Below are positions 22,435 through 34,441 of a DNA stretch of 34,782 nucleotides, piece by piece. The first letter of the stretch is position 1. The number at the start of each line of letters is the position of its first letter. Under the pieces are notes generated by a model that was not told the origin of the DNA, did no database searches, and saw only the letters and a program-made list of their open reading frames with translations. Source of the stretch: Psychrilyobacter piezotolerans (GTDB lineage: Bacteria; Fusobacteriota; Fusobacteriia; Fusobacteriales; Fusobacteriaceae); contig NZ_QUAJ01000028.1 in the NCBI RefSeq assembly GCF_003391055.1, positions 1-34,782 of the forward strand, in the 5' to 3' direction. A program made the translations under genes and the position numbers.

Positions 22435-23553
22435 ATGAAAAAAAAATTAAAGTTTGCTGTTATTGGTGCCGGAAATGGGGGGCAGGCAATTGCAGGATAT
22501 CTAGCCTGTAAAGGATATCAGGTTAATTTATATAATCGTACGATAAAAAATATAAAAAGAATAAAAAAAAGAGGTTATATTGATTTAGAAGGTTGTATTA
22601 ATGGACGGGGAAAGTTAAATTTGATTACAGATAATATGGAACAGATAATAAAAAATGTAGATATAATTATGGTTGTACTGCCTGCTACTGCCCATAATTT
22701 TATCGCCAATAAAATTAGCCGTTTTATAACACAGGATCAATATATTGTATTAAATCCCGGAAGAACAGGGGGAGCATTGGAATTTAAAAATATTATGAAG
22801 AAACATGATCCCTTTAAAAATGTGTGTATTGTAGAGGCTCAGACTTTATTGTTTGCGTGCAGAGCAATAGAACAAGGAAAAATAAAAATTTTTAGCAAAA
22901 AGGCAGAAGTCAAAGTAGCTGCCTTACCGGCTATAAAAACCAATAAATTCATTCATCTGATAAGCCAAGCTTTTCCAGAATTTACTCCGGCTGAAAGTGT
23001 ATTAGAAACCAGTTTTAATAATATAGGTGCCGTACTGCATCCAATTCCTACCATATTAAATTGTGGAAGAATTGAAAATACAAGGGGGAATTTTCAATAT
23101 TATATAGATGGTATTACCCCATCTGTGGCAAAAATTATAGAGGAGGTTGACTATGAACGAATGTTGGTTGCCAAAGCGTTGAGAATTGAAGTTTTATCTT
23201 TAAAGGACTGGCTGGAGTATACCTATAACACTCATGGAGATACATTGTGTCAGTCACTTAGGAATACCAATGGATATTATGGAATCATGGCACCAGAAAA
23301 TTTAGATACCAGGTATATTTTTGAAGATGTTCCTCAAAGTCTTGTACCTATTCGGGATATGGCAAAGTATCTGGGGATACAAACACCGACTATTGATTCC
23401 ATGATTCATCTGGCATCTACTCTTCACAATACAGATTATTATCTAAGTGGAAGAACCATAATTGATATGGGATTGGAAGGGTTATCTCTGGAAGAAATAA
23501 AAGAATTTGTAAGAACTGGTCATGTATCAGGCACAAGGGGAGTGGAAGTATAA
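22435..23553 (+). CDS. Opine-dehydrogenase-like (octopine/nopaline DH) enzyme
   Basis: A 372-residue NAD(P)-dependent dehydrogenase. An N-terminal Rossmann domain has G-A-G-N-G-G-Q-A (residues 11-18), and the C-terminal octopine dehydrogenase domain has the conserved H202 in G-A-V-L-H-P-I-P-T-I-L-N. Opine dehydrogenases join an amino acid to a 2-oxo acid by reductive amination, or run in reverse. The stop codon overlaps the start of the next gene (TAATG), so the pair is translationally coupled to a B12-binding mutase-like enzyme. The substrate is unknown. Confidence 0.85.
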   Translation: MKKKLKFAVIGAGNGGQAIAGYLACKGYQVNLYNRTIKNIKRIKKRGYIDLEGCINGRGKLNLITDNMEQIIKNVDIIMVVLPATAHNFIANKISRFITQDQYIVLNPGRTGGALEFKNIMKKHDPFKNVCIVEAQTLLFACRAIEQGKIKIFSKKAEVKVAALPAIKTNKFIHLISQAFPEFTPAESVLETSFNNIGAVLHPIPTILNCGRIENTRGNFQYYIDGITPSVAKIIEEVDYERMLVAKALRIEVLSLKDWLEYTYNTHGDTLCQSLRNTNGYYGIMAPENLDTRYIFEDVPQSLVPIRDMAKYLGIQTPTIDSMIHLASTLHNTDYYLSGRTIIDMGLEGLSLEEIKEFVRTGHVSGTRGVEV

Positions 23554-25181
23554 TGAAAAAATATATAGGTGCCGCAATCGGAAATTGCGTTCATGTAGGC
23601 GGGGCTGTGAATTTTTTGAGGCTTGCAGAAGAAGAAGGACATTCTGCAGAATTTTTAGGAGCAGCTGTAAGTATAGATAACTTAATTGACTATATTCTTG
23701 AAAAAAACCCCGATGTGGTAAGTATTGGATTTAGGTTGACACCCGACTCTGTAATACCCCTGTTGAATGAGCTGGAAAAAAAAATTTATGATCACAAATT
23801 AGAAAATATTGAGTGGATTTTTGGGGGAACAAAACCAGTTGCTGAATTTGCAAAAGAATACAAGTTTTTTTCTAAAATATTTGATGGTACAGAAGATTTA
23901 GATGAGGTCATTGGTTATTTAAGGGGAAAAAAATTAAAGGATCTTGTCATTGATGAATCCCAGGATATTATAGAAAGGATAAGATCCAGATATCCTTATC
24001 CTGTTATAAGGCATCACTTTGGACTGCCCTCCTTAGAGGAAACCTATGAAGGAATTAAAAAAATTGCAGAAGCCGGGATTTTGGATGTGATTTCCATAGG
24101 ACCCGATCAAAATACCCAGGAAAACTTTTTTTCACCAGAGAAGATGAACCATGATTTAGATGGGGCAGGAGGGGTACCTCTGAGAAAAGTAGAGGATTTT
24201 GAAAAGTTATACCGGTCTGCTCAAAGGGGAAATTACCCCCTATTAAGATCTTATAGCGGAACTGCAGATATTTTTAAAACTGCAGAACTCCTTCAAACTA
24301 CAATCAAGAATGCCTGGTGTGCCGTACCTCTGTGCTGGTATAATGTGCTGGACGGAAGGGGTGAAAGATCCCTTGTTACCTCTATCAGTGAGGGACAGGA
24401 GTTGATGAGATGGCATGCCCAAAGGAATATCCCCATAGAAGTCAATGAAGGGCATCATTGGAGTCTTAGGGATGCTCATGATACTATTGGTGTGGTTATG
24501 GCTTATTTGGCAGCATATAATGCAAAAAAAATGGGAGTGAAAAATTATATTTCTCAATATATGTTCAATGTACCGGCCTGCATCCACCATAGAATGGACT
24601 TGGCAAAGATGCTTGCAAAGGTTGAATTAATTGAATCTTTGGAGGATGAAAATTTTAAGGTGTTCAGACAGGTAAGAGCTGGATTGGCAAGTTTGAGTAC
24701 AGATTTAGATGTGGCCAAGGGGCAGTTAGCAGCCTCTACCTATTTGGCCATGACTTTAAATCCCCACATTGTGCATGTGGTAGGTTTTAGCGAAGCAGAT
24801 CATGCGGCCAAACCCGAAGATGTAATTGAAAGCTGTAAAATTGTAAGGGGAGTTATAAGATCAACCCTCTATGGAAGGGTAGATATGAAAAATGATACAG
24901 TTGTTCAGGCTAGAAAAAATCAGTTGATAAAGGAAGTTAAATATCTGCTGAATACTATAAAATCACTTTATAATAAAAGTGAAGATCCATGGTCGGACCC
25001 TGTAGTTATTGCAGATATGATTAAAAAAGGAATTATAGATGCTCCCCATTTGAGAGGAAATAAAAATGCTAAGGGAACATTAGAAACAAGAATTGTAGAT
25101 GGAAAATGTATGGCATATTCCAAAAAATTAGGAAGGGTCGTATCGGAGGAAGAGAGGTTGTCGGAATTATTAGATCTTTAA
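23553..25181 (+). CDS. B12-binding mutase-like enzyme (glutamate-mutase-E-like barrel)
   Basis: A 542-residue protein. The N-terminal 135 residues look like a cobalamin-binding domain. They have H14 in C-V-H-V-G-G (compare D-x-H-x-x-G, with the Asp replaced), then S-I-G-F-R-L-T, F-G-G-T-K-P and a final acidic G-T-E-D-L-D-E-V helix. The remainder resembles the TIM barrel of methylaspartate (glutamate) mutase E: G-P-D-Q-N-T-Q-E, N-E-G-H-H-W-S-L-R-D-A-H-D and P-H-I-V-H-V-V-G-F-S-E-A-D-H-A-A. Fusion of both parts in one chain and coupling to an opine dehydrogenase are distinctive. The reaction is unknown. Confidence 0.72.
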   Translation: MKKYIGAAIGNCVHVGGAVNFLRLAEEEGHSAEFLGAAVSIDNLIDYILEKNPDVVSIGFRLTPDSVIPLLNELEKKIYDHKLENIEWIFGGTKPVAEFAKEYKFFSKIFDGTEDLDEVIGYLRGKKLKDLVIDESQDIIERIRSRYPYPVIRHHFGLPSLEETYEGIKKIAEAGILDVISIGPDQNTQENFFSPEKMNHDLDGAGGVPLRKVEDFEKLYRSAQRGNYPLLRSYSGTADIFKTAELLQTTIKNAWCAVPLCWYNVLDGRGERSLVTSISEGQELMRWHAQRNIPIEVNEGHHWSLRDAHDTIGVVMAYLAAYNAKKMGVKNYISQYMFNVPACIHHRMDLAKMLAKVELIESLEDENFKVFRQVRAGLASLSTDLDVAKGQLAASTYLAMTLNPHIVHVVGFSEADHAAKPEDVIESCKIVRGVIRSTLYGRVDMKNDTVVQARKNQLIKEVKYLLNTIKSLYNKSEDPWSDPVVIADMIKKGIIDAPHLRGNKNAKGTLETRIVDGKCMAYSKKLGRVVSEEERLSELLDL

Positions 25182-25355: not shown

Positions 25356-25450
25356 TACAGGATAACGTATATTTTAGACTATAATAAACTAATTTTGTAA
25401 AAATATCTTAAAGACCTGTGCTTATTTTAAATATAAAAAGGGAGAATAAA

Positions 25451-26974
25451 ATGAAAAAACTGCTGATTATTCTAATGTTTATGACAATTTTTATGGTTGG
25501 AATGGCCGATCCTGCAAGATCAAAGGATTATTCGGTATATGCAACGAGCACCCTGGTAAGCCCGAAAACTGCAGATAAAATGATAGAGGCCGAAAAGGAC
25601 CTGGTGATTTTAGATGTAAGAAAACAGGCAGTTTTTGAAAAAGAACATCTGGAAGGATCTTACCAGATTTGGAGGCCGGATTTTTCTGCTGATAAGGGGG
25701 AATATGAATATAGCGGGATGAGGGCTTCCCCTGAGAAGATGGCTGAAACATTAGGTTCCTACGGGATTACAGCTGATACCCACCTCCTCTTACTTGGTGA
25801 AGATGCGGCCAGATTATGGTGGATATTGGATATGTACGGACATAAGGATATATCCATGATCGACGGCGGAATAGACGGGTGGAAGACAGCCGGATTAAAA
25901 GTAGTAGAGGGAGGTGCAGCAAGACCAGCTGCCCAGGCGGTATATGAATTTAGCGGTCCGGCAGATCTTTCTAAGTCAGCGAATTTAGAAGATGTGAAAG
26001 CTGCAATGGCAGATGATGTAATGATATTAGATACAAGAACTTATATTGAATCTGATGGATTAATTCAAAAGGACGGGGCATTTGCCAGGGGTAGAATCCC
26101 GGGTTCGTATAATATTCCATGGAATTTGATGGTGAACAAGGATAAAACATTTAAATCACCTAAAGAGATGAAAGCAATTTTGGATGAGGAGGGGATTACA
26201 GAAGATAGGGCAGTTATTTTATACTCTCATTCAGGCGTAAAATCTGCTTATATGACCTTTGTATTGAAAGAGTTATTGGGGTATAAAAATGTTAAAAACT
26301 ATGATGGTTCATGGACTCAGTGGTCCTATGAATCCACCCGGGGAAATGTTGAAATTGAGAGAGATAACATTTTTAAGATTCTGTTCAGTTACCTTAAAAA
26401 CAGGGAAAAATTAGAAAGTATAATTACTATGTTAGGGGTATGGGGACCACTGGGATACATTATAATGTATATAGTGGTTACAATAACTATGATATCGGCA
26501 GTGCCTGCCACAATAGCCGGCGGGATAATCTTCGGGCCAATAATGGGAGTTATCTATACGGCTATAGGGGCAGGTATAGGACTTTCATTATCTTTCCTGA
26601 TAGCGAGATATATTGCAAGGGGAGCTATTGAGAGAAAGTTTGGAAACACAGCTATGTTTAAAAAAATAGATGAAGGAGTAAAAAGAGACGGATGGTTTAT
26701 TTTGGCTGTAACCAGATTGATACCTATCTTTCCATTTGGGATCCAAAATTATGTATATGGTTTGACTTCTATTGGGTTTATGCAATATGCCATATTATCT
26801 ACAATATTTATCCTTCCGGGAACCTCTGTATATGTCATGCTGGCAGGGGCATTTGCATCTGGAGACAGGGATATAGTTTTAAAGTATTCGATCATAGCGT
26901 CATTGATTTTCCTTGGATTAATTATAGTTACCAGGATAATCAAGAAAAAAGCTGGACTACAAAATAAAAACTAA
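25451..26974 (+). CDS. Tandem rhodanese fused to a TVP38/TMEM64 membrane domain
   Basis: A 507-residue protein: signal peptide (about 1-22), rhodanese-like domain 1 (about 38-155), rhodanese-like domain 2 (about 175-285), then a VTT/TVP38 membrane domain (about 315-500) with P-x-T-I-A-G-G-I-I-F-G-P and R-L-I-P-I-F-P-F-G-I-Q-N. Neither rhodanese loop has a cysteine: domain 2 reads Y-S-H-S-G-V-K-S with S259 at the catalytic position. So the rhodanese part is probably non-catalytic, or binds rather than transfers. The start at 25451 has GGGAG upstream; an earlier ATG at 25418 has none. It is a paralogue of the gene at 30682. Confidence 0.82.
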   Translation: MKKLLIILMFMTIFMVGMADPARSKDYSVYATSTLVSPKTADKMIEAEKDLVILDVRKQAVFEKEHLEGSYQIWRPDFSADKGEYEYSGMRASPEKMAETLGSYGITADTHLLLLGEDAARLWWILDMYGHKDISMIDGGIDGWKTAGLKVVEGGAARPAAQAVYEFSGPADLSKSANLEDVKAAMADDVMILDTRTYIESDGLIQKDGAFARGRIPGSYNIPWNLMVNKDKTFKSPKEMKAILDEEGITEDRAVILYSHSGVKSAYMTFVLKELLGYKNVKNYDGSWTQWSYESTRGNVEIERDNIFKILFSYLKNREKLESIITMLGVWGPLGYIIMYIVVTITMISAVPATIAGGIIFGPIMGVIYTAIGAGIGLSLSFLIARYIARGAIERKFGNTAMFKKIDEGVKRDGWFILAVTRLIPIFPFGIQNYVYGLTSIGFMQYAILSTIFILPGTSVYVMLAGAFASGDRDIVLKYSIIASLIFLGLIIVTRIIKKKAGLQNKN

Positions 26975-27132: not shown

Positions 27133-27161
27133 TTGAAAAATTGGAAAAAAAGTGGTATAAA
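27133..27161 (+). promoter_or_regulatory. Promoter of the TGA-containing mini-ORF
   Basis: TTGAAA (27133-27138) and TATAAA (27156-27161) with a 17-bp spacer, 33 bp before an ATG with a strong AAGGAGAGG site. Confidence 0.6.
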
Positions 27162-27193
27162 TTATGTAAATAAATTTTTAAAGGAGAGGAATT

Positions 27194-27292
27194 ATGTTTA
27201 AATTAAGATTTAATTGAGCCTGAATAGCCGATAAACTTCTGGATGAAGTTATGATGGAACTTTTAGAATCTGAAAAAGGATATATTAGGTAG
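27194..27292 (+). CDS. Candidate tiny selenoprotein with two TGA codons (UxU)
   Basis: Starting at the ATG after AAGGAGAGG, the frame reads M-F-K-L-R-F-N, TGA, A, TGA, I-A-D-K-L-L-D-E-V and ends at TAG after 32 codons. TGAs are at 27215-27217 and 27221-27223. A 6-bp hairpin (AACTTC/GAAGTT, loop TGGAT) puts a GG in the apical loop 17 nt after the second TGA, close to bacterial SECIS spacing. A promoter is present, and a much stronger selenoprotein candidate lies 1.2 kb downstream. It may instead be the decayed start of a lost gene. I recognise no family. Confidence 0.4.
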
Positions 27293-27689
27293 TCTTTCTG
27301 CTTCAATATTATAAACATTTATTCCAATTCACTCTTTAACTTCCAACCCATTTTAAAATTATGATGGATATAAATAAACATATTAACGAGATGTTTTGAC
27401 CTTAATATTTTATCTATTCCTAAATAATTACTTTCGGAACAACTCTGTTCCCATTAACAATCATTTTAAAAAACGAAGAAAACAATAAAAATTTAATCTT
27501 AATGCATAAATATAATCTCCTTGATAAAGCAGGGGGTCACTTGTGATGTGTTAAATTCGGACTTATCTCGGAAAATTATTGCTTTTAAAATTTATTCAAA
27601 CCTCAGTTGATTCTAGAAAGATGTCCATAGGATAGATTAAATTTAATAAGCCTTGAATGATAACTGTATAAATTTACATTAATTTTAAA

Positions 27690-27757: not shown

Positions 27758-28471
27758 TTGAAGTATAGAAAAGATAAGATGCTAAAAATAGGAGTTTTGA
27801 TAGTCATAACAGGGTTATATTTTTTAATACCGGCAGTGAAAATAAATGTCAATCAGGCTATTTTCATCCTTCAAAATGTAGATGTTGATTTGGCAAGAGG
27901 TTATATTTTAGGATTTGGAATGTGGGCACCAGTTGTATCATTTTTATTGATGATATTACAATCTATAGCAGCACCCCTTCCAGCCTTTATAATAACCTTT
28001 GCAAATGCTGGTTTATTTGGCTGGGTAAAAGGAGCTCTTTTATCATGGACCAGTTCCATGGCAGGAGCAGCACTTTGTTTTTATATAGCAAAGTTTTACG
28101 GAAGAGATGCAGTGATAAAATTAACCGGTAAATATGCATTGGACAGTGTAGATGATTTTTTTGATAGATATGGAAAATATACAATATTGATAGCACGTTT
28201 ACTGCCGTTTATTTCTTTTGATATTGTCAGCTATGCCGCCGGATTAACTTCTATGAGTTTTTTCAGCTTTTTTATTGCAACTGGTATAGGACAGCTGCCG
28301 GCAACGATAATTTATTCATACATTGGAAGTATGTTAACAGGTACAACCAAAACAATAGTGGTTGGATTACTTATGTTATTTGCAATAAGTACATTAATAT
28401 TTTTATTTAAAAAGGTTTGGAATGATAAGAAACAGTCAAGAGATACTACAGGATTAGAAAACGTAAACTAA
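27758..28471 (+). CDS. TVP38/TMEM64 family membrane protein, TTG start
   Basis: A 237-residue inner-membrane protein with about six hydrophobic segments and the VTT domain (about residues 60-190): P-L-P-A-F-I-I-T-F-A-N-A-G-L-F-G-W, G-A-A-L-C-F-Y-I-A-K-F-Y-G-R and R-L-L-P-F-I-S-F-D-I-V-S-Y-A-A-G-L-T. E. coli relatives are YdjX and YdjZ. The TTG at 27758 is 8 bases after GGAGG (27745-27749); the first ATG is 21 bases further in and has no such site. The selenoprotein rhodanese begins 16 bp after it, so they form an operon. DedA/TVP38 proteins act on lipids or small substrates; the role here is not known. Confidence 0.87.
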   Translation: MKYRKDKMLKIGVLIVITGLYFLIPAVKINVNQAIFILQNVDVDLARGYILGFGMWAPVVSFLLMILQSIAAPLPAFIITFANAGLFGWVKGALLSWTSSMAGAALCFYIAKFYGRDAVIKLTGKYALDSVDDFFDRYGKYTILIARLLPFISFDIVSYAAGLTSMSFFSFFIATGIGQLPATIIYSYIGSMLTGTTKTIVVGLLMLFAISTLIFLFKKVWNDKKQSRDTTGLENVN

Positions 28472-28487
28472 AATACAAGGGGGAAAA

Positions 28488-29432
28488 ATGAGAAAAAAAT
28501 ACACCATGGGATTACTTATTCTATGTGGATTGATGGTTTTTTTATTTAATGGTTGTGGTAAATCACCGGCTGAGGAAGTAAAAAAAATAGATCTTTCCAT
28601 ATATGAAAAAGGAGATTATTTTATCAGCCCGGAGGAGCTTAAAACGTTATTAGGAACAGAAAATTTAGTATTACTGGACTGTAATAATCCTAAATTATAC
28701 GCTAAAGAGCATATAAAAGGAGCAGTTGGAATCGGATTCCATGCTTTTTCAGAAAAAGTCGGAAAACCAGGAGATCCAGGTTGGGGGACTATAAAATCAA
28801 AGGAAGAGCTGACTAAAAAACTTATTTCATTGGGGATAGACAATGAAAAAATAGTGGTACTCTACTCCGATTTATTTAAAGGTCCCGGAGCAGATGGACG
28901 TGCAGCCTGGCAATTAAGATTAGCAGGAATGAAAAATGTTAAAATCCTTCATGGAGGGTCCGGTTATTGGAAAGAACTTGGTTATGAGATGACGAATGAT
29001 GTTACAGTTAAACCAACACCTAGTACTGGTGTGACTTTAAAAGATTATGACAGAAGTTTTATGGTAACGAAGGACGAAATTTATAAGAATTTAGGAAAAA
29101 CAACACTTATCGATGTAAGAACTAAAAAAGAATTTGATGGATCGCAAAATGCAGGAGAGCCTAGAGGCGGCCATATAAAAGGGGCAAAGCACCTTCTTTG
29201 GACAGATTTGTTGAATAAAAATGGAACTTTAAAGACTCCAAAAGAGATGGAAGAGATAATGAGTGAAATGGGTGTTTCTAAAAAAGATGATTTTACACTC
29301 TACTGAACTATGGGAATAAGATCAGGTTATGCAACTATGATCCTCAGAGCCGGAGGCTTTGAAAATGTAAGAAACTATGAAGGTTCTATTTATGAATGGA
29401 GTGGCGATAAAACTATGCCAATGGAAAAATAA
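28488..29432 (+). CDS. Selenocysteine-containing rhodanese lipoprotein
   Basis: A predicted 314-residue exported lipoprotein (hydrophobic signal ending F-N-G-C) with two rhodanese domains. Domain 1 (about 40-165) has no catalytic Cys. Domain 2 (about 185-310) has D-V-R-T-K-K-E-F and G-G-H-I-K-G-A. At the active-site position, after F-T-L-Y, an in-frame TGA (29304-29306, residue 273) is followed by T-M-G-I-R-S, giving U-x-x-G-x-R-S. The frame continues through N-V-R-N-Y-E-G-S to TAA at 29430. A hairpin downstream is SECIS-like. Conventional gene calling would stop at 29306 and lose the active site. Selenium-containing rhodaneses have been predicted before as a family; this protein seems new only in its setting. 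Confidence 0.88.
29304..29342 (+). promoter_or_regulatory. Bacterial SECIS-like element after the in-frame TGA
   Basis: GATCA (29320-29324) pairs with TGATC (29338-29342), with possible inner pairing GTT/AAC. The apical loop starts GGU exactly 18 nt after the TGA, the same distance as in E. coli fdhF as I remember it. The element lies inside the coding frame, as bacterial SECIS elements do. Confidence 0.75.
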
Positions 29433-29449: not shown

Positions 29450-30586
29450 ATGATTCCTGAAAAACTTAGAGAAAAAATAGAAGAAATAATCGATGGTTGT
29501 TTAGAATGTAAATCTAAACCTTGTATGAAAAACTGTATAATGTTAAATGAATTTGGAGAAGATCCTAAGTCAATTCTTAAGGAATGTATAGCGAAAAATG
29601 AAATACCGGATAAACTGGTATATTCATGTAATATGTGTAACAGGTGTACAATTGCCTGTCCAAAAGACTATAAAATACAGGATATCTTTATGGAGAGTAG
29701 AATTCTAAAAATAAAGAGAAATAATGGTAAATCACCTATGAAGGGTCATAGAGCAATAGAAGCTCACCAATATTTAGGGTATTCAAATTTCTTTAATACA
29801 GTCAATAAAGCTCCTAAGGGAAATAAAACTAAAAGAATATTTTTTCCGGGGTGTTCCCTGCCTTCTTATAATTCAAAAGCAGTGGGAAATATATTGGACT
29901 TTTTACAGGAAAAATATGATGGAGAGATAGGATCGGTCTTAAAATGCTGCGGGAAACCAACAAAATCTCTGGGACAGGTAGAGGCTTTTGAAAAAAGATA
30001 TGCTGCAGTCCAGAAAGCTATAGACGATACAGGAGCAGAGGAAATTATCGTAGCATGCCAGTCATGTTATAGGGTCTTTAAAGAACACAGCCCCAATCAA
30101 AGGGTAAGGTCTTTATGGGAAATATTACCGGAATTAGGACTGCCTGAGCAGACTAAGGAGATAGGAAAAGATTCGGATGTGGTATTTGGTATCCATGATT
30201 CGTGTTCTACGAGAGACAATGTGGAGATCCAAAATGGGGTCAGACGGATCTTAGCTCAGATGGGATATAAGACCGAAGAGTCTGTAAATACAAGGGGAAA
30301 TACAAGGTGCTGCGGATTTGGAGGAATGGTAATGCCGGCTAACCCAGAAGTAGCTCATGCAGTTATAACTGAGAGGGGAACGGAATATAAGACAGATCAT
30401 ATAGTAAGTTATTGTGCTGCATGCAGGGAATCTATGGAAAATGCAGGAAAAGATTCTGTGCATATCCTGGATCTGGTGTTTGGAGACAGGTATATAAAGG
30501 CTTCAGCAGAAAAAAGATCTCAAGGTTCGGTTAGACAATGGATCAACAGGTTTAAATCTAAAAAAGAATTGAATAAAAGAAAATAA
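29450..30586 (+). CDS. (Fe-S)-binding CCG-domain protein, HdrD/GlpC-like
   Basis: A 378-residue cytoplasmic redox protein. An N-terminal cysteine-rich part has C-x2-C-x4-C-x3-C near residues 17-29 and the 4Fe-4S motif C-N-M-C-N-R-C-T-I-A-C-P (about 60-71). Two CCG domains follow, with P-G-C-S-L-P ... C-C-G-K-P (from about 134) and D-S-C-S-T-R ... R-C-C-G-F-G-G ... C-A-A-C-R (from about 249). CCG domains in heterodisulfide reductase and related enzymes handle thiols and disulfides, so it may deliver or receive electrons for the selenorhodanese 17 bp upstream. Its last 75 bases are duplicated at 25283-25355. Confidence 0.88.
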   Translation: MIPEKLREKIEEIIDGCLECKSKPCMKNCIMLNEFGEDPKSILKECIAKNEIPDKLVYSCNMCNRCTIACPKDYKIQDIFMESRILKIKRNNGKSPMKGHRAIEAHQYLGYSNFFNTVNKAPKGNKTKRIFFPGCSLPSYNSKAVGNILDFLQEKYDGEIGSVLKCCGKPTKSLGQVEAFEKRYAAVQKAIDDTGAEEIIVACQSCYRVFKEHSPNQRVRSLWEILPELGLPEQTKEIGKDSDVVFGIHDSCSTRDNVEIQNGVRRILAQMGYKTEESVNTRGNTRCCGFGGMVMPANPEVAHAVITERGTEYKTDHIVSYCAACRESMENAGKDSVHILDLVFGDRYIKASAEKRSQGSVRQWINRFKSKKELNKRK

Positions 30587-30681: not shown

Positions 30682-31452
30682 ATGAAAAAACTGCTGACTG
30701 TTGTAATGTTTATAGTCATTTTTATGATTGGAATGGCTGGTCCTGCGACATCAAAGGATTATTCAGTATATGCAGCAAGACCAACTACCCAGACGGTATA
30801 TGAATCCACCCGGGGAAATGTTGAAATTGAGAAGGATAACATTTTTAAAGTTCTATTTAGTTACCTTACAGAGAGGGCAAAATTAGAAAGTGTGATTACT
30901 ATGTTAGGGGTATGGGGACCATTGGCATATATTATACTATATATAGTGATTACAATAAGTATGATGTCGGTACTGCCTGTCACAATAGCCGGCGGGATAA
31001 TCTTCGGGCCAATAATGGGAGTTGTCTATACGGCTATTGGGGCAGGTATAGGACTTTCCTTATCTTTCCTGATAGCGAGATATGTTGCCAGGGGAGCTAT
31101 TGAGAGAAAGTTTGGAAACACAGCTGTATTTAAAAAAATAGATGAAGGGGTAAAAAAAGACGGATGGTTTATTTTAGCTGTAACCAGATTGATACCCATC
31201 TTTCCATTTGGGATCCAAAATTATGTATATGGATTAACTTCTATTGGATTTATGCAATATGCCATATTATCTACAATATTTATCCTCCTGGGGACCTCTG
31301 TATATGTGATGCTGGCAGGAGCATTTGTATCCGGAGACAGGGATATAGTTTTAAAGTATTCAATCATAGCATCACTAATTTTTATGGGACTTATGGTGGT
31401 AACGAAGATTATCAAAATAAAGATGGAACTTAAAAAAATAAAAATTAAATAA
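30682..31452 (+). CDS. TVP38/TMEM64 protein, paralogue lacking the rhodanese domains
   Basis: A 256-residue protein: signal peptide, about 20 residues of linker, then the VTT membrane domain (about 65-250). It is nearly identical to the C-terminal half of the gene at 25451, and its signal peptide matches as well. The linker is a collage of that gene's sequence before domain 1, between the domains (A-R-P-x-x-Q-x-V-Y-E) and after domain 2 (S-T-R-G-N-V-E-I-E). So both rhodanese domains appear to have been cut out at short repeats. GGAG precedes the ATG. Confidence 0.88.
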   Translation: MKKLLTVVMFIVIFMIGMAGPATSKDYSVYAARPTTQTVYESTRGNVEIEKDNIFKVLFSYLTERAKLESVITMLGVWGPLAYIILYIVITISMMSVLPVTIAGGIIFGPIMGVVYTAIGAGIGLSLSFLIARYVARGAIERKFGNTAVFKKIDEGVKKDGWFILAVTRLIPIFPFGIQNYVYGLTSIGFMQYAILSTIFILLGTSVYVMLAGAFVSGDRDIVLKYSIIASLIFMGLMVVTKIIKIKMELKKIKIK

Positions 31453-31684: not shown

Positions 31685-32806
31685 ATGAAAAAATTAATAT
31701 TTCTATTGATATTAACGAGTTTTTTATTGATAGGCTGCGGAAAAAAAGAAGAAACGTCGAAAAAAGACGTTCTGGGTATGAGCTGGGAAGAGATTGAAAA
31801 AAACGCTCATGGCCAGACTGTGTCTATAACCATGTGGGGGGGAAGTAAGGAGATTAATAAATATTATGATGAATTTATAGCTCCTAATCTGAAGAAAGAA
31901 TATAATATAACTTTAAAAAGAGTACCGGTTACGGATATCAGGCAGCCTCTGAATAAGTTGGTTGTAGAGAAAGAAGCCAATAAAGTAAATGGAAGTACCG
32001 ATGTTATCTGGCTCAATGGAGAAAATTTTAAATTTGCTAAAACTAACGGGATTTTACTGGGAGATATCAACTCCAAGCTTCCAAATATAGAGGGGGTCGA
32101 TCCAAATGCTCTTAGGAATGATTTTGGTGAGCCGGTAGACGGACTGGAAGCGCCTCTGGGACAGGCTAACTTTATAATGATAACGGAGATAAAAAATCCT
32201 CCTAAGACAGCAGCAGAATTAAGATCGTGGGTGATAAAAAACCCAGGAAGATTTACCTATTCCAATCCCAATGATTTTGTAGGGAATGCCTTCATAAGGA
32301 CACTGGCTGTAGATCTGTTGGGAAGAGATGATTTCACAGTGGAAGAGATGGGACCGGTATGGGACTACTTAAACGAAATAAAGCCCTATCTGTGGAGGGA
32401 AGGAAAAACTTATCCTGAATCTTCAGAAAAAAATCATGAATTGTTTGCCAGTGGAGAGGTTGATTTCACTATCAGCTATACTCCCAGTATCGTAGAAAAT
32501 AAAGTAGCTTTAGGAGAATTTCCCAAAGATACATATCCATATGTGATGAGTGTTGGGAGTTTCACAAACAATCATTATCTGACTATAGCTAAAAATACAC
32601 AAAATCCAGAAGCAGCTTTGGTTTTTATAAACTATATGATCTCAAATGACCCCCAGGAGGAGAAGATGAAGTCTTCGGTATGGGGAGACGGGGCAGTTAC
32701 AAAAAAATTAAAGGAAGAGTTGTTTTCACCTCAACTGGAGGAGTTGTCTCCAGAGGTAACGGAAGGGATAAAAGATGAATGGTATGAGAAAGTGGCAAAG
32801 GGTTAA
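31685..32806 (+). CDS. ABC transporter substrate-binding lipoprotein, YnjB-like
   Basis: A 373-residue exported lipoprotein: signal peptide with L-I-G-C (C18), then a periplasmic-binding fold with W-G-G-S-K-E-I-N-x-Y-x-D near residues 51-62, D-V-I-W-L-N-G-E-N-F (about 106-115) and P-x-T-A-A-E-L-x-x-W. This resembles E. coli YnjB, whose substrate is not established. The downstream permease gene begins inside its last codons (32 bp overlap). Neighbouring TVP38 and rhodanese genes match the companions of ynjB in E. coli. Confidence 0.8.
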   Translation: MKKLIFLLILTSFLLIGCGKKEETSKKDVLGMSWEEIEKNAHGQTVSITMWGGSKEINKYYDEFIAPNLKKEYNITLKRVPVTDIRQPLNKLVVEKEANKVNGSTDVIWLNGENFKFAKTNGILLGDINSKLPNIEGVDPNALRNDFGEPVDGLEAPLGQANFIMITEIKNPPKTAAELRSWVIKNPGRFTYSNPNDFVGNAFIRTLAVDLLGRDDFTVEEMGPVWDYLNEIKPYLWREGKTYPESSEKNHELFASGEVDFTISYTPSIVENKVALGEFPKDTYPYVMSVGSFTNNHYLTIAKNTQNPEAALVFINYMISNDPQEEKMKSSVWGDGAVTKKLKEELFSPQLEELSPEVTEGIKDEWYEKVAKG

Positions 32807-33650
32807 GGAACACCTGGGGATTCTGCCCAGTATCGTGGTGATGTCAGCCTTATTTTGGAGTGGAATACTGGAATCTTTTAAGCAGATATTTAATTATAAG
32901 CTGCTGGAAAAAATAATAAATAAGGGAGATTTTTTAAATTCTCTGGCTTATACAGCCAGACTGAGTCTGTGCTCTATAATTTTAGTAGGAATAATATCTC
33001 TTTTGGGAATATATATCCTCTATCTCCTCAGTACAGAGGTCGGTCCGGCAAAATTAAACGGGATAAAGATGTTTTTACTTTCGCCTATGTATATCCCCTA
33101 TCTTTTAGGAGGATATATGATGGCTATTTTAATTGGCCAGAGCGGAATTATCTCCACCCTGTGCCATAGATTGGGGTGGATTCATAAGATGACTGAATTC
33201 CCGGTTTTAGTCAATGAGAGTCATGGATATTCAATCATATTGACCTATGGATGGAAGGCCAGTCCCTTTGTGATCCTCATGGTCTATTCAACGATGATAA
33301 AGATAAACAATGAATGGCTGGATGTGGCCAAAGTGTACGGAGTAAATAGATATCATTTTTTTAAAGAGGTGGTATTTCCAATAATTTTCCCGATCTATCT
33401 CAGTTCATTATTTGTAGTATTTGCTCATATATTTGCTTCATTTGAGGTTCCGTATCTGCTGGGAGTAACCTACCCCAGAACTCTGCCGGTTTTAGCCTAT
33501 GAAAAATACGCAAGGAATAGTATAGCCAACAGGGGAGAGGTAATGGTAATAAACAGTATAATCATATTACTAACGGCCGGTATGGCACTGCTTATCTATA
33601 AATTGAATAAATCACTGGGAGAAAGGGTGGAATTAGAATTAGAAAAATAA
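32775..33650 (+). CDS. ABC transporter permease, N-terminal half of YnjC-like
   Basis: A 291-residue inner-membrane permease with six or seven helices and the cytoplasmic coupling motif E-W-L-D-V-A-K-V-Y-G-V-N-R-Y-H-F-F-K-E-V-V-F-P (about residues 176-198), split here by family convention as E-A-A-x3-G. It overlaps the binding-protein gene by 32 bp and the next permease by 13 bp. E. coli YnjC is, as I recall, one chain of about 511 residues holding both permease halves, so here the same unit seems split. Confidence 0.82.
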   Translation: MNGMRKWQRVKEHLGILPSIVVMSALFWSGILESFKQIFNYKLLEKIINKGDFLNSLAYTARLSLCSIILVGIISLLGIYILYLLSTEVGPAKLNGIKMFLLSPMYIPYLLGGYMMAILIGQSGIISTLCHRLGWIHKMTEFPVLVNESHGYSIILTYGWKASPFVILMVYSTMIKINNEWLDVAKVYGVNRYHFFKEVVFPIIFPIYLSSLFVVFAHIFASFEVPYLLGVTYPRTLPVLAYEKYARNSIANRGEVMVINSIIILLTAGMALLIYKLNKSLGERVELELEK

Positions 33651-34441
33651 TTATAATAGCAGGGCTGGTATTCATACTGGCAGTTTTATTCCCGTTTATT
33701 CCCCTGATTCTGGGGTCCATATCCAGCGGGTGGAGGTTTGGAGAGATACTGCCTCCTAATTATTCTATAGATGGATATGAGTATGTATTGAAAAACAGAT
33801 CCACATGGATTGGAATGGGGTATAATCTGTTCATTGCCTATACGGTGGCTGTAATCAATCTATTTCTGGCTATACCTGCAGCTAGATTTTTATTCAGAAA
33901 AAAAAGCCGATTCAAGGGGATCTATATGATAATTTTATTTGCTCCCCTGATAATTCCGTCCCTTTCATCTGTACTGGGGATCCATCGGAGTATGATAATC
34001 TACGGGTTAACAGATAATTTATTAGGAGTAATTTTAGTAAACATAATCCCCAGTTTTCCCTATGTACTTCTCAGTCTGTATGGGAGTTTCAAAGGATTTC
34101 CCAAAAGATTGGAAGAATCTGCACTTATTGACGGTGTCTTAAAATTTCAGATGTACAGGTATATTATCCTGCCCATACTGATCCCCGGGATATTAATCGG
34201 GTCAACAATATCCATATTGATATCTCTGTCGGAATATATTCTGACCCTTCTTATAGGAGGGGGGGAGATAATTACCCTGCCAATCCTTATGTTTCCATAT
34301 TTAAGCAGCGGGGATAAGATAGTCGGATCGGTCTATGCTATCCTATTTATCTTCTTTAATATAGCCGGGATTTTATTATTTGAGCTGGGAATAAGATCTG
34401 TATTGAAAAAAATTACAAAGGTAAAACTAATTGATAATTGA
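33638..34441 (+). CDS. ABC transporter permease, second half of YnjC-like, ATT start
   Basis: A 267-residue permease with about six helices. The coupling motif L-E-E-S-A-L-I-D-G-V-L-K-F-Q is near residues 162-175. The frame is open from 33611, and the first canonical start is the TTG at 33788, which would remove the first membrane helix. A normal N-terminus (x-R-K-I-I-I-I-A-G-L-V-F) begins at an ATT codon at 33638, 7 bases after AAAGGGTGG. Alternatives are a -1 slip at the AAAAA run before the upstream stop (33644-33650), giving a YnjC-like fusion, or a point mutation of ATG. Confidence 0.72.
   Translation: MRKIIIIAGLVFILAVLFPFIPLILGSISSGWRFGEILPPNYSIDGYEYVLKNRSTWIGMGYNLFIAYTVAVINLFLAIPAARFLFRKKSRFKGIYMIILFAPLIIPSLSSVLGIHRSMIIYGLTDNLLGVILVNIIPSFPYVLLSLYGSFKGFPKRLEESALIDGVLKFQMYRYIILPILIPGILIGSTISILISLSEYILTLLIGGGEIITLPILMFPYLSSGDKIVGSVYAILFIFFNIAGILLFELGIRSVLKKITKVKLIDN

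Follow-up and report, generated by a model that had tools for sequence, protein, structure and literature searches.

A gene of the marine bacterium Psychrilyobacter piezotolerans (Fusobacteriota) very probably encodes a genuine selenoprotein, a two-rhodanese-domain predicted lipoprotein with selenocysteine (Sec) at the sulfur-accepting position of its C-terminal domain. The gene lies in the window, the whole 34,782-nucleotide stretch of contig NZ_QUAJ01000028.1 (RefSeq assembly GCF_003391055.1) that was analyzed. An initial annotation made from the DNA letters had proposed that residue 273 is Sec, and this assignment is supported by a TGA shared among six genomes, by homologs with Cys at the same position and by the presence of the Sec machinery. 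What the protein does is a more tentative matter, for which we consider extracytoplasmic chalcogen transfer and a redox role.

A tandem-domain rhodanese with one in-frame UGA

Translation of the coding sequence with TGA read as Sec (U) affords 314 residues containing a single U, at position 273 within LYUTMGIRSG, before a TAA stop codon (Table 1). The translation agrees with the earlier description of a single in-frame TGA followed by 41 rhodanese codons. Of the two PF00581 domains, the C-terminal one carries a U-x-x-G-x-R-S loop that fits the C/U-x-x-G-x-R-S/T pattern. The protein falls below the equivalog cut-off of the 3-mercaptopyruvate sulfurtransferase model NF008557 (81.5 bits versus 250) and below the cut-off of NF041203 (42.1 bits for the full protein versus 115), and its motif is YUTMG, not CxU. 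In an AlphaFold model, residue 273 ends a strand (269-273) and a helix (277-288) comes next, an arrangement that matches the active-site loop of rhodaneses. The mean pLDDT of this model is 59, and its use as a structure-search query was dropped because the confidence was too low.

The N-terminus resembles a lipoprotein signal ending at Cys23, a residue that is invariant in six genomes and lies in an LFSSC or LFTSC context in the orthologs. The Sec rhodanese is therefore probably a lipoprotein situated outside the cytoplasm. Because Sec occupies the catalytic position, automatic annotation would end the protein just before its active site, as had been anticipated; a program-made list of open reading frames does stop the gene at 29306, after 272 residues. 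Standard annotation would label such a protein an inactive fragment.

Table 1. Features of the Sec rhodanese locus, in window coordinates
Feature	Position	Strand	Basis or remarks
Rhodanese-VTT fusion	25418..26974	+	VTT part 36% identical to YdjX; Ser at catalytic position (YSHSGVKSA)
Intergenic element, ~320 nt	27149-27470	+	11 copies in four Psychrilyobacter genomes, 86-94% identical to window copy
VTT-domain membrane protein	27758..28471	+	56% identical to E. coli YdjZ; directly upstream of Sec rhodanese
Tandem-domain rhodanese, predicted selenoprotein	28488..29432 (TAA included)	+	PF00581, 2 stretches, 114 bits; UGA read as Sec at residue 273
Predicted lipoprotein-type N-terminal signal	28488..28556	+	Sequence; ends at Cys23 (LFNGC), invariant in six genomes
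In-frame UGA at catalytic Cys position, read as Sec	29304..29306	+	
Candidate bacterial SECIS hairpin (GAUCA ... UGAUC)	29320..29342	+	GGU at 29325-29327, 18 nt after UGA
Fe-S/CCG (HdrD-like) protein	29450..30586	+	Just downstream; partial match to NCBIfam NF045663 'diclust_near_Sec'
Second stand-alone VTT membrane protein	30682..31452	+	
ABC substrate-binding protein, YnjB family	31685..32806	+	PRK11622, 358 bits (cut-off 203)
Two ABC permease genes	32775..34441 (32775-33650, 33788-34441)	+	

Evidence for selenocysteine at residue 273

Comparative data indicate that the UGA almost certainly inserts Sec. A read-through search covering 61 relatives, and subsequently 98 genomes from the phylum, revealed five orthologs, four from the same genus and one from another genus of the family, with identities of 81-86%. 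Each possesses one TGA, at the identical codon, and the same C-terminus. The TGA is thus found at this codon in 6/6 genomes from two genera, a pattern far beyond chance, and a contig scan returned only two loci, in the genus Psychrilyobacter and in a Fusobacteriaceae bacterium. Non-identical residue pairs occur at a frequency of 0.037 over the 41 codons after the UGA versus 0.145 before it, with zero residue changes from U+1 to U+18 among the six genomes.

The proposal that the TGA stands in for the active-site cysteine is borne out by homologs that carry Cys. In phmmer searches against solved structures, the catalytic Cys of Thermus rhodanese 1UAR, of 8K55 and of 3AAX falls at residue 273; Cys also stands here in 12 family relatives (VTYCTAGIRSA, ISYCQSGVRSA and similar) and in an Enterococcus gilvus protein (YCTAGIRSAY). 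Within the Fusobacteriota, no Cys form of the ortholog itself was found, the nearest Cys paralogs being ~37% identical. An unannotated Acetoanaerobium match was considered as a missed Sec codon and rejected, as it has Cys (YCGTGWRA).

The source genome encodes the machinery for Sec insertion, with matches to selA (592 bits), selB (370 bits, one strong match) and selD (385 bits), and a tRNA-Sec that scores above the Rfam threshold and is called by ARAGORN as tRNA-SeC(tca), anticodon UCA. The protein genes are arranged in the order selD-selA-selB. SelD of this genome is itself a selenoprotein, the TGA lying in frame within its motif SGGGUTSKIG (L018 1501-2412, on contig C5 of the source genome, G000).

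Other readings of the UGA were weighed against this evidence. In a regulated truncation, the 272-residue form lacking the active site would also be a product, and selenium supply would set the extent of Sec read-through. Sec decoding of UGA is generally inefficient at low selenium, and the N-terminal domain could fold separately; yet we saw no constraint specific to a truncated product, and the active-site region is the most conserved, which makes this an improbable account. Nonsense mutation, pseudogene formation, sequencing error and a general reassignment of UGA are each either excluded or very unlikely. A real stop followed by a residual frame, whether through mutation, gene decay or assembly error, would find a parallel in the decayed, multi-stop copy of the relative Ilyobacter polytropus, but no stop other than the TGA interrupts the gene in any of six separate genomes, and conservation over the 41 codons beyond it exceeds that of the remainder, so that this reading has only a slim chance of being correct. 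The homologs do not all end at the TGA but run on to a common C-terminus, and its presence in five other genomes means that it is not a sequencing error. Reassignment of UGA to another amino acid such as Trp, for which no evidence was found, is less plausible still, since TGA ends 3/29 listed open reading frames of the window (the Sec rhodanese gene being one of the three), the relatives carry Cys, not Trp, at the position, and the Sec machinery is complete.

The I. polytropus copy (G031; L027/L044) is the seventh known to us from this survey and has many stops; the genome was assigned to this species from agreeing coordinates (913181-914059 in G031, 913184-914068 in NC_014633). Although that genome has selA, its copy is decayed, and the gene is thus dispensable there.

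A candidate SECIS hairpin downstream of the UGA

Conservation among the six genomes suggests that a hairpin shortly after the UGA likely acts as the SECIS element. The initial annotation placed the start of its loop at a GGU 18 nt past the TGA. The spacing is correct (GGT at 29325), but the loop start does not hold in the best fold. At -5.7 kcal/mol, the minimum-energy structure has the GGU paired (GGUU/AACU) and a 4-nt loop of AUGC, whereas the open-loop form in which GGU starts the loop reaches -3.4 kcal/mol, 2.3 weaker. The distance from UGA to GGU is likewise 18 nt in selD of the source genome, and E. coli fdhF shares this spacing.

The hairpin is invariant in the six genomes except for one A/G stem column, where the pair is kept as A-U or G-U, and the 60 nt from the UGA contain four variable columns. 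Synonymous difference is 0.097 in U+1..U+15 versus 0.266 before the UGA, among the lowest of 270 windows; the corresponding values at the same place in the set of Cys paralogs are 0.177 versus 0.225. Among codons for invariant residues, 3/13 vary after the UGA versus 101/187 elsewhere, a modest effect (permutation p 0.029). Hairpin stability showed no excess over shuffled sequence (z 0.06 and -0.36), and fold energy was consequently rejected as evidence for a SECIS. Stability alone proves nothing, and it is conservation that carries the evidence.

Genomic neighborhood

The VTT gene and the Sec rhodanese gene are adjacent in 6/6 genomes. In two of these (G004 and G020) the surroundings differ and the pair stands alone amid housekeeping genes, which suggests that VTT protein and Sec rhodanese constitute the minimal unit. 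Further upstream, the window and three relatives encode a rhodanese-VTT fusion with Ser at the catalytic position in all four genomes (YSHSGVKS, YSQSGVES, YSRSGIES and YSNLGIRS). Rhodanese fusions have been noted in a study of the DedA family, where the link was called unclear (PMC10127716). The Fe-S/CCG gene at 29450 scored 296 bits against NF045663, below the cut-off of 530, with coverage limited to positions 304-663 of the 759-position profile. Upstream of the locus, 22435-25181 encodes an octopine-dehydrogenase-like protein and then a 542-aa protein with a weak B12-binding match.

The intergenic element of Table 1 recurs in the source genome (G000 C20:43768 and C20:58703) and at L071, L073, L074, L075, L076, L078 and L060. 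Its start is promoter-like, it has a strong site resembling a ribosome-binding site, and its mini-ORF of 31-32 codons (27194-27292 in the window) contains UGA-GCC-UGA (MFKLRFN-U-A-U...) in all 11 copies. We considered a double-selenocysteine microprotein and rejected it: conservation extends ~200 nt past the ORF, the C-terminal frame shifts between copies, and differences by codon position (147/109/143) do not favor the third. Coding is therefore unsupported, and the element is probably not a coding gene. A search for structured RNA at the element gave a covariation term of about zero and nothing credible in Rfam, which leaves a structured RNA likewise unsupported.

Proposed function

The leading candidate function, put forward tentatively, is extracytoplasmic chalcogen transfer in the service of the YdjZ-type membrane protein. 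SelB and tRNA-Sec would read the UGA with the help of the downstream hairpin, and the selenol of residue 273 would, in rhodanese fashion and outside the cytoplasm, take up sulfane sulfur or possibly selenium as Se-S(e). The chalcogen would then be transferred, on the membrane's outer side, to an acceptor associated with the neighboring membrane protein. The Sec rhodanese may perhaps dock on the Ser-containing rhodanese-VTT fusion, which would itself be non-catalytic. A more elaborate and rather doubtful extension casts the locus as a split sulfur/selenium transfer system, in which the Sec lipoprotein would be the sole reactive chalcogen source and the fusion its membrane docking partner, the two jointly handling extracytoplasmic sulfane sulfur or reduced selenium.

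The main rival to chalcogen transfer is a thiol/selenol redox enzyme built on the rhodanese fold, acting for example in peroxide or metalloid reduction. A redox role is presumed for many bacterial selenoproteins (PMC13188914); in addition, arsB/arsC are the neighbors of the Cys version in E. gilvus, and an Fe-S/CCG protein is encoded downstream of the Sec rhodanese. Against such a role, the loop retains the U-x-x-G-x-R-S rhodanese pattern and has no resolving Cys alongside, and we regard a redox function as somewhat unlikely. The Geobacter protein ExtI was considered as an analog of a VTT-type transporter and rejected, because it is an outer-membrane porin (PMC5877670). The locus ties the YdjX/YdjZ membrane proteins, which are poorly understood, to chalcogen or metalloid chemistry in a way that can be tested.

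Comparison with known systems

Rhodanese selenoproteins have been predicted before, as the initial annotation stated. Five forms (PF00581) are listed in Table 1 of PMC13188914, forms 2 and 4 being UxxG, and earlier marine surveys predicted members assigned to COG2897 (PMC1088965) and to cd01449/COG2897 (PMC2398784). Since UxxG rhodanese selenoproteins are already catalogued, the kind is known and the Psychrilyobacter protein adds a member. It shares with forms 2 and 4 a Sec predicted in place of the catalytic Cys, followed by Gly at +3 (U-T-M-G), a likeness drawn from motif descriptions, and differs in being a Fusobacteriota lipoprotein, as predicted, paired with a YdjZ-type VTT gene. NF041203 (form 3, CxU) is likewise a rhodanese-related selenoprotein, but its Sec lies two residues past the Cys (PMC13188914 Table 1), whereas in Psychrilyobacter Sec is at the Cys position itself. 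In a non-exhaustive literature search, we did not find this lineage, the lipoprotein form, or the YdjZ and Ser-fusion context; nor did we find a paper joining TVP38 and selenoprotein, or anything relevant on Psychrilyobacter selenoproteins. At the level of sequence, the apparently new details are the predicted lipoprotein, its constant pairing with a YdjZ-like VTT protein, the Ser rhodanese-VTT fusion nearby and a locus resembling ydjXYZ-ynjABCDE.

In E. coli K-12, ydjX-ydjY-ydjZ-ynjA-ynjB-ynjC-ynjD-ynjE stand in a row. BLAST comparison of the Psychrilyobacter proteins with this cluster gave identities of 28% to YnjE, 56% to YdjZ, 36% to YdjX (the fused VTT part) and 34% to YnjB, and an Fe-S protein and an ABC permease also occur in the same neighborhood. 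In contrast, YnjE is no selenoprotein, the gene order is unlike, and Psychrilyobacter adds the rhodanese-VTT fusion and the CCG protein.

Within the plasmid set searched, the top match was a gene pair on Enterococcus gilvus plasmid pCR1C (L086 2912-4551), comprising a lipoprotein rhodanese 35.5% identical to the Sec rhodanese and, directly after it, a TVP38 protein (53% identical to its counterpart in the window). The Enterococcus pair has Cys instead of Sec, in a CTAGIRSAY loop, and adjoins arsB-arsC. Overall, the YdjZ-linked Sec rhodanese of six genomes, the Cys form of this pair on the arsenic-resistance plasmid of Enterococcus and the Ser partner rhodanese together form a clean set for study.
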